From Psychrobacter immobilis (GTDB lineage Bacteria; Pseudomonadota; Gammaproteobacteria; Pseudomonadales; Moraxellaceae), in NCBI RefSeq assembly GCF_904846235.1, contig NZ_CAJGZN010000002.1:1-64000 (forward strand): a stretch of DNA of 64,000 nucleotides. The letters run 5' to 3'. Position numbers and translations under genes: made by a program. This document shows positions 41,823 through 42,991 of this stretch, one piece after another. The notes under the pieces are model-generated. The model searched no databases. It saw only the letters and a program-made list of their open reading frames with translations, and had not been told where the DNA came from. Position 1 is the stretch's first letter, and each line of letters starts with the position of its first letter.

Positions 41823-42503
41823 CTATCGCCCACCTGAAATGATAAATTTACTGCCACAGCTGTCTACAACGTCATGACAAGTCCCAAAATCACTACCTTC
41901 ATAACACACATGTATATCAGTAAGTATCGATTGGCGACGGCTGCCTTCTTGACAGATAAGATCTACACTATTTGAAGACATACCACTATTGAGCCGCGTC
42001 ATTTGGCTGATGAATCGAGATTTGGAAACGGTATAACTGTTGCCAGTATTTAGCTCATTCGGTAAGTTTAAACCACCTGCATAGTTAGTAATCTGGCGAA
42101 AGTAACTGCTGGCGCTAAGTGGGCTACAGACTCCGTAACGTTGCCACGTTTGGCTACGTACCGTTGTGTCAGGCATAATGCGGTTGACGACTTTTAGTTG
42201 TAACGGTGTAAGGCGTGGCTCACTACCACGACCGCAGCGTTCGCCATATCCCATATCCAGACCAGATACGGTCAATGAATACCCTTCTAGACATTGGCGC
42301 ATACGTGCTCGCGTTGGCTGCATATCACATAATGCTGGCGTCATCTCAATCATTAATACGCGCTGACCAGTTTTCACCGTATTAGCGGCTTGGACTGGCA
42401 ACATTACGATACCCTGTATAAGTAACAAAGCGCCGAAGCTCATCGTTGCTTTGATACTACCTACGCTATGTTTGCTAGCCAAATCTGCACGCAATTGCAC
42501 CAT
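41823..42503 (-). CDS. secreted RNase T2-like protein lacking the catalytic histidines
   Basis: The product aligns in outline with bacterial RNase I (T2 family): EGYSLTVSGL where active enzymes have LTVHGLWP, then PLQLKVVNRIMPD, then WQRYGVC where active enzymes have HEWxKHGTC, and a Cys-rich C-terminus with ICQEG..ILTDIHVCY and SCGSKFII. In both active-site motifs the catalytic His is replaced (Ser and Tyr). A signal sequence (FGALLLIQGIVMLPVQA) indicates export, and several cysteines could form disulfides. The start is uncertain: ATG 42503 (226 aa, AAGG upstream) is preferred, 42632 is the longest frame. Confidence 0.65.
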   Translation of the reverse strand: MVQLRADLASKHSVGSIKATMSFGALLLIQGIVMLPVQAANTVKTGQRVLMIEMTPALCDMQPTRARMRQCLEGYSLTVSGLDMGYGERCGRGSEPRLTPLQLKVVNRIMPDTTVRSQTWQRYGVCSPLSASSYFRQITNYAGGLNLPNELNTGNSYTVSKSRFISQMTRLNSGMSSNSVDLICQEGSRRQSILTDIHVCYEGSDFGTCHDVVDSCGSKFIISGGR

Positions 42504-42940
42504 AGAATTAGCGACCTTATTGCTCAGGTCTGTATCCGTCTTTGTATTTGCCTTCGATAAAGAGCATATCCGATTAGATAACGAATATTTGGTTTTTGGC
42601 GACGTAGACAGACTAAAATATTTTTTGATCATAGGACTGAAGGCAGTTAGTTAGCAATGATAAGACATAGGCTATAACTTAAATCATTAGACGCGATACA
42701 TAAAACACGCATTGACCTAAGAACAAGACTGAAAAATAGGGTTTCCCATTAAGGCAATGGTAACAAAACGTTTTTTTTAATCTATAGCAAAAACGTAAAC
42801 GTTGACGACATCGTCAGGAATCTCGATAAATGTTTATAAAGTACTGAAGGATAAAAAATATGAAATTTATTTTCGCTAGATGAGTGCTGCTTGAGCAAAT
42901 CAGAGTTGATCAATTGACAAAGCAAATCAGTAGATAAAAA
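42504..42940. other. upstream region of the RNase T2-like gene
   Basis: From 42504 to 42632 the frame of the downstream gene stays open, so part may be coding if the longer start is used. The remainder to the transglycosylase terminator holds no ORF or clear signal. Confidence 0.4.
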
Positions 42941-42972
42941 TAAACCACTAACAATAAATCATTAGTGGTTTA
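42941..42972 (-). terminator. terminator of the lytic transglycosylase gene
   Basis: TAAACCACTAA and TTAGTGGTTTA form a perfect 11-bp stem with a 10-base loop; the minus-strand side is followed by TTTTTATC. It lies 20 bases after the stop codon. Confidence 0.85.
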
Positions 42973-42991
42973 TCAAATGCAAGTTCAGTGA

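Follow-up and report, generated by a model that had tools for sequence, protein, structure and literature searches.

An RnaA-like relative of RNase T2 with both catalytic histidines replaced in Psychrobacter immobilis

The rnaA locus and its reading frame

The 64,000-nucleotide stretch of Psychrobacter immobilis DNA analysed here (the window) carries a gene for an RNase T2-like protein which lies between the genes of a lytic transglycosylase and a malate dehydrogenase (Table 1). We take these two neighbours to be slt and mdh from their sequences. The hairpin found between slt and the RNase T2-like gene is weak evidence for a terminator, since the scan averages 0.9 such sites in shuffled sequence. 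An Rfam scan of the whole 64-kb window at gathering scores gave no matches.

Table 1. Features of the rnaA locus, in window coordinates
Feature	Position	Strand	Basis
slt (presumed), soluble lytic transglycosylase, directly upstream of rnaA	42992..45196	(-)	sequence; published rnaA neighbour
terminator-like hairpin, long and A+T-rich, 16 pairs (3 G-C) then T run, just 3' of slt	42939..42974	(-)	scan
rnaA orthologue, RNase T2-like pseudoenzyme with leader, 269 aa	41823..42632, stop codon included	(-)	ORF, translation, Pfam, profile
hydrophobic segment of a presumed signal peptide (roughly residues 64-82); closes with VQA ahead of the mature protein	42387..42443	(-)	by eye
ex-CAS-I motif LTVSGLDMG (residues 120-128); Ser123 replaces catalytic His	42249..42275	(-)	translation, alignment
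ex-CAS-II motif WQRYGVC (residues 163-169); Tyr166 replaces catalytic His	42126..42146	(-)	translation, alignment
mdh (presumed), malate dehydrogenase, directly downstream of rnaA	40463..41452	(-)	sequence

An initial annotation of this DNA had given the gene the extent 41823-42503. The stop end of this extent is right; its start, 42503, is an internal ATG, and the frame remains open up to 42632. A protein begun at 42632 opens with MIKKY in 17 of 20 aligned rows (the window copy being counted twice), the other three having different leaders; the real start is therefore perhaps 42632 instead of 42503, and the longer form is plausible from this alignment. The motifs LTVSGLDMG, MPD (residues 153-155), WQRYGVC and CGSKFIISGG, the last of them close to the C-terminal end, stand in the translation where that annotation had placed them. 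Eight cysteines follow the leader (residues 102, 114, 133, 169, 227, 243, 252 and 259), and a ninth, Cys23, is located within it. With a leader that resembles a signal peptide, the RnaA-like protein is presumably exported and located in the periplasm. Among 14 close sequences, dN/dS amounts to 0.31 for residues 1-43, 0.19 for residues 44-88 and 0.02 for the remainder. Purifying selection on the mature part is strong: dN/dS is 0.021 for 14 close sequences, and 0.051 when the window is compared with 56 loci.

Descent from RNase T2 and the two active-site motifs

The order of the motifs had suggested a relative of bacterial RNase I, a homology that profile searches by way of intermediate sequences bear out. 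With the window protein taken alone, the Pfam model Ribonuclease_T2 (PF00445) covers residues 155-249 with an E value of 1.4e-4 and 22.5 bits, below its curated cut-off of 26, and a search of the window's own genome with this model gave no match at E 0.001. Neither a phmmer search of the PDB with the window protein, which gave no matches, nor a search of the PDB with a profile built from Psychrobacter sequences alone found an RNase T2 chain, and the homology thus rests on intermediate sequences. When the PDB is searched with a profile of 31 Moraxellaceae relatives, E. coli RNase I is matched at 1.1e-13; all 11 matches belong to the RNase T2 family. Orthologues from the same locus pass the Pfam cut-off in Psychrobacter genome G088 (29.4 bits) and in several genomes of the genus labelled g63, which we take for Acinetobacter because it has many species, frames of 220 aa and the gene order described below. 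A Pfam match over the cut-off was found in 36 of 299 genomes of the family, a count that includes genera with catalytic copies. The descent of the window protein from RNase T2 is well supported by these sequence comparisons. When 244 genomes of the order were searched, 13 had a match, six of them from the window's genus. The other seven all have the KHG of CAS-II; their CAS-I reads HGLWP in five and AHGFWPQ in one, and in the remaining one it was not found by pattern search.

Structure prediction points weakly in the same direction. Two AlphaFold2 models made from Psychrobacter-only alignments reached mean pLDDT values of 54.3 and 43.9, and only the better one was used for fold searches. With this weak model, the first 11 rows returned by Foldseek are members of the RNase T2 family, the best at an E value of 0.012 and none below 0.001. 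A second fold comparison of the same model placed the family in its first 18 rows with Z scores of 4.8-6.7, the next row having 4.7; scores below 8 may reflect just a common arrangement. RNase T2 structures are thus ranked first, if weakly, with a poor model and no E value below 0.001, and an unrelated fold did not emerge. An RNase T2 fold is indicated by the predicted model.

Both catalytic histidines of the family, those of CAS-I and CAS-II, are missing from the window protein, which has Ser123 and Tyr166 in their places, and on this point the initial annotation was correct. The replacements are widely shared. In 57 aligned rows (56 distinct, with the window copy present twice), residue 123 is Ser in 56 and Ala in one, and residue 166 is Tyr in 52, His in four and Phe in one. 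Among 76 distinct Psychrobacter sequences, the CAS-I histidine is absent from 76 and the CAS-II histidine from 71, with the latter present in the other five, so the loss is no recent mutation. According to PMC10249906, orthologues in Acinetobacter and Psychrobacter are completely without the catalytic histidines; with counts of 0 of 76 and 5 of 76 for Psychrobacter, this is true of CAS-I in every row of the present set and of CAS-II in most. For the 128 distinct rows that come from the slt locus, a CAS-I histidine is found in none and a CAS-II histidine in five, every one of these from Psychrobacter, and the alternative of a simple mutation in the window copy did not emerge. The five sequences with the CAS-II and without the CAS-I histidine are L048, L049, L053, L084 and L087, all at the slt locus. 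At residue 166 the His codon is CAT, and the Tyr codons are TAT and TAC; the V, Q and R entries in the codon table come from one out-of-register locus, probably that with a one-residue deletion. Across genera, the histidine of CAS-I is replaced by S, T, N, Q, A, V or E, and the CAS-II position is occupied by Y, I, V, N, S, H or F. Close to the ex-CAS-II motif, Trp163, Gly167 and Cys169 are kept in every genus compared.

Distribution in the Moraxellaceae

The family profile has a match in 294 of 348 Moraxellaceae genomes and in 11 of 16 genera, counts that include His-bearing relatives and the doubtful g51. In the window's genus, a protein search finds rnaA in 81 of 90 members; 56 loci were found, and identity to the window protein is 92-97% for the closest full-length matches. 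The residue table holds 141 distinct rows. Two matches were dropped, one in g51 (E 2.4e-4, three internal stops) and one of 34 residues in G209, because their loci gave no matching open frame of 60 aa. The weak family-profile match in g51, with its three internal stop codons (L196, G146:C84:8572-8817), is either a fragment or chance.

The position of the gene is well kept. In A. baumannii, slt is located directly upstream of rnaA (PMC10249906). In the present set both genes were found at 120 loci, some of them from the same genomes, and at 119 of these the two are adjacent and share a strand. Both slt and mdh are neighbours in 46 of 46 loci of g63, 20 of 21 of g1 (the remaining one having mdh only), four of four of g57, three of three of g55 and the one locus of g56. 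There are also loci with a single neighbour, namely four in g59 with slt only and one in g64 with mdh only. Neither gene was seen around the copies of g53, g60 and g61, nor around L107, the second gene of g59, within stretches that measure at most about 3.6 kb.

A tree was built from 57 of the 141 rows with the motif columns excluded, using 15 of the 76 rows of g1, 16 of the 39 of g63 and all 26 others; seven of the g1 rows were picked by hand, and the remaining g1 and g63 rows were random. In this unrooted tree, 44 slt-locus rows from seven genera are on the same side of one branch with support of 99/94. Relatives located elsewhere than the slt locus have at least one catalytic histidine in 13 of 13 cases: both in all seven g61 rows and in L107, which forms a very long branch, CAS-I only in four of four g53 rows, and CAS-II only in the one row of g60. 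The simplest reading of the alignment and the tree would be one loss of the catalytic pair before the slt-locus genera split, with the CAS-II histidine regained in a few Psychrobacter lineages. It is worth mentioning one g59 genome (G154) in which about 22 kb separate two relatives of RNase T2. The first, L107 (C1:2342115-2342690), has both histidines, and the other, L190 (C1:2364866-2365444), is beside slt and has neither.

The gene is also absent in places. Ten Psychrobacter and three g55 genomes are listed as lacking rnaA in the profile search, and mdh was found in all 13. In 12 of these 13, no trace of rnaA is present between slt and mdh, the two matches being about 200-530 bp apart; in G014 (83% complete), neither slt nor rnaA was found in the 1.5 kb upstream of mdh. 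Thus, rnaA is cleanly missing from 12 genomes that keep slt beside mdh.

A possible role in BfmRS signalling, and known relatives

The window gene is, with near certainty, the Psychrobacter orthologue of Acinetobacter rnaA. This is supported by its position at slt, by the eight cysteines, and by the 99/94 branch that it shares with g63, taken as Acinetobacter, apart from the His-bearing relatives. The published work on the A. baumannii gene is informative here. In one study, RnaA was described as probably a pseudoenzyme; when it was deleted, capsule rose by some 50% and BfmR~P roughly threefold, effects that need BfmRS, and its overexpression reduced capsule only if BfmS works (PMC10249906). 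Loss of dsbA acted in the same direction as the rnaA deletion, and the authors proposed that RnaA has been co-opted to sense defects in disulfides or damage by oxidation (PMC10249906). In an earlier study, RNase activity was not detected for the purified A1S_3026 protein (data not shown there), and a transposon mutant of the gene was poor in surface colonisation and motility (PMC3904860). Together with the missing His pair, the undetected activity of this orthologue agrees with the initial view of the window protein as a non-catalytic relative. A1S_3026 was also listed among surface-motility genes and given a predicted secretion signal (PMC7997844); no obvious secretory motif was noted in PMC3904860.

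The observation that started this analysis is therefore real and was read correctly, but it is already known. Between them, two papers (PMC10249906, PMC3904860) already report the loss of the histidines, the undetected activity, a regulatory role and the existence of orthologues in Psychrobacter, so the find is not new. Four points are added here: the range of seven genera, their placement on one branch, the separation of this branch from copies that bear histidines, and the genomes from which the gene is cleanly missing. Among the matches listed from the open-licence literature, there was no paper on these four points and no RnaA paper later than PMC10249906.

We propose that the gene encodes a disulfide-rich, presumably periplasmic relative of RNase T2 for which the two-histidine chemistry of the family would be impossible. 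Its eight conserved cysteines would presumably be oxidised by DsbA. By analogy with A. baumannii, the amount of RnaA, or its folded and oxidised state, would keep the sensor kinase BfmS quiet, and the loss or misfolding of RnaA would activate BfmRS and thereby alter the envelope. We consider it likely that this explanation as a whole, a non-catalytic RnaA orthologue that acts as a signal protein for BfmS/BfmRS, is the right one. The BfmRS role in Psychrobacter taken by itself, with both the link and its direction borrowed from the published A. baumannii work, may be right or wrong with about equal chance. The initial annotation had suggested that the protein was kept for another role, such as RNA or ligand binding or inhibition; the first part of this suggestion stands, and among the roles, envelope signalling through BfmRS appears better supported than the ones it named.

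The partners that this role calls for can be found in the window's genome. Its BfmR orthologue matches the BfmR structure 5hm6 at E 5.2e-67 and is adjacent to a BfmS-like kinase, and there are four DsbA-family genes. By eye, two very similar pairs of response regulator and kinase were seen on separate contigs (L167, G000:C5; L169, G000:C13). The BfmS sensor domain is nearly universal in the Moraxellaceae: 341 of 348 genomes have a match, as do 15 of 16 genera. It is matched in all ten of the listed rnaA-less Psychrobacter genomes, so BfmS persists without RnaA; and with a match so widespread, the presence of BfmS is uninformative for the link to RnaA. Two genomes of the window's genus, G074 (rated 99% complete) and G331 (77% complete), have rnaA and no BfmS sensor match, for which an assembly gap is a possible cause. 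The sensor domain was also compared with the kinase part by the ratio of their distances to g63. The ratio is 1.05-1.11 in ten Psychrobacter rows without rnaA and 0.87-0.99 in 11 rows with it, but the raised values probably represent one event, since the ten form one group. In g55 the ratios are 0.93, 0.96 and 1.08 without rnaA and 0.93-0.96 with it; they range from 0.93 to 1.36 in g58, which is without rnaA, and are 1.11 and 1.16 in g57, which has it. Within groups, the ratios go the opposite way, at 1.86 without and 2.11 with rnaA (10 rows, the window left out).

Other readings of the same facts have to be weighed against BfmRS signalling. The groove of the old active site may bind RNA or a nucleotide and make the protein a periplasmic sensor or sequesterer of such molecules, for which the constancy of Trp163, Gly167 and Cys169 beside the old motif in all compared genera could be taken as a sign. 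However, the residues at both His positions vary between and within genera and are therefore unlike a kept ligand site, and we regard this reading as unlikely. It is highly improbable that the protein is still a ribonuclease by means of other catalytic residues or a cofactor: the CAS-I histidine appears in 0 of 128 slt-locus rows, and activity of the A. baumannii protein was not detected, in data not shown, although assay limits or a cofactor were not formally excluded by the authors (PMC3904860), and five of 76 Psychrobacter sequences do have the CAS-II histidine.

The conserved slt-rnaA order across several genera invites another thought, namely that the protein works with the lytic transglycosylase Slt as a helper for the envelope or cell wall, the effect on BfmRS being one of indirect envelope stress. 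Deletion of slt in A. baumannii does have an effect in the same direction, a modest hypersusceptibility to phage, but a polar effect on rnaA is possible according to the authors (PMC10249906). Moreover, slt is found beside mdh without rnaA at 12 loci, and a terminator-like hairpin, of weak statistics, is located between slt and rnaA. A role as a helper of Slt seems improbable to us on balance. As for gene decay that would end in loss, the ten listed Psychrobacter genomes without rnaA could be cited in its favour, but it is ruled out by the dN/dS of 0.02-0.05 in the mature part, with the gene present in 81 of 90 members of the genus, and the chance we leave it is negligible.

With BfmRS signalling as the preferred reading, a broader history can be sketched tentatively, and with less than even confidence. 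The pseudoenzyme would have a single origin that predates the split of at least seven Moraxellaceae genera; settled next to slt and mdh, it would have been retained because it serves BfmRS as a dedicated input from the periplasm. Active RNase T2 genes would sit elsewhere, and the Psychrobacter lineage without rnaA would run BfmS on other input. If the single origin is true, the pseudoenzyme is no peculiarity of Acinetobacter. In A. baumannii, BfmRS regulates capsule, virulence and resistance; its signals are described as poorly defined in PMC10249906, and RnaA offers a lead. While the histidine loss in itself was already known, Psychrobacter provides material for asking what signal BfmS receives: orthologues, natural absences of rnaA, and the few sequences with a CAS-II histidine.

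The closest known system is RnaA of A. baumannii (A1S_3026, ACX60_RS02390), which is described in the literature as an RNase T2 relative without the catalytic histidines, with eight cysteines and with slt upstream, just as is the case for the window protein. As measured against the loci of g63, a genus taken as Acinetobacter, the matched parts are 33-41% identical. The two differ at the CAS-II position, which is Ile or Val in 38 of 39 g63 rows and Tyr in most Psychrobacter rows, and the Psychrobacter frame extends further at the N-terminus than the 220-aa frames of g63. In the parts of the literature used, RnaA function was tested in A. baumannii only, and the role in Psychrobacter is drawn from there. 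The E. coli RNase I shares with the window protein the RNase T2 family, eight cysteines (PMC10249906) and, presumably, a periplasmic location, in addition to the profile match at 1.1e-13; unlike the window protein, which has neither histidine, it is catalytic. Both the profile and the fold comparison also match CalsepRRP, an RNase-related protein of the plant Calystegia sepium (PDB 1jy5) that belongs among the relatives of RNase T2. It is enzymatically inactive and has an unrelated role.
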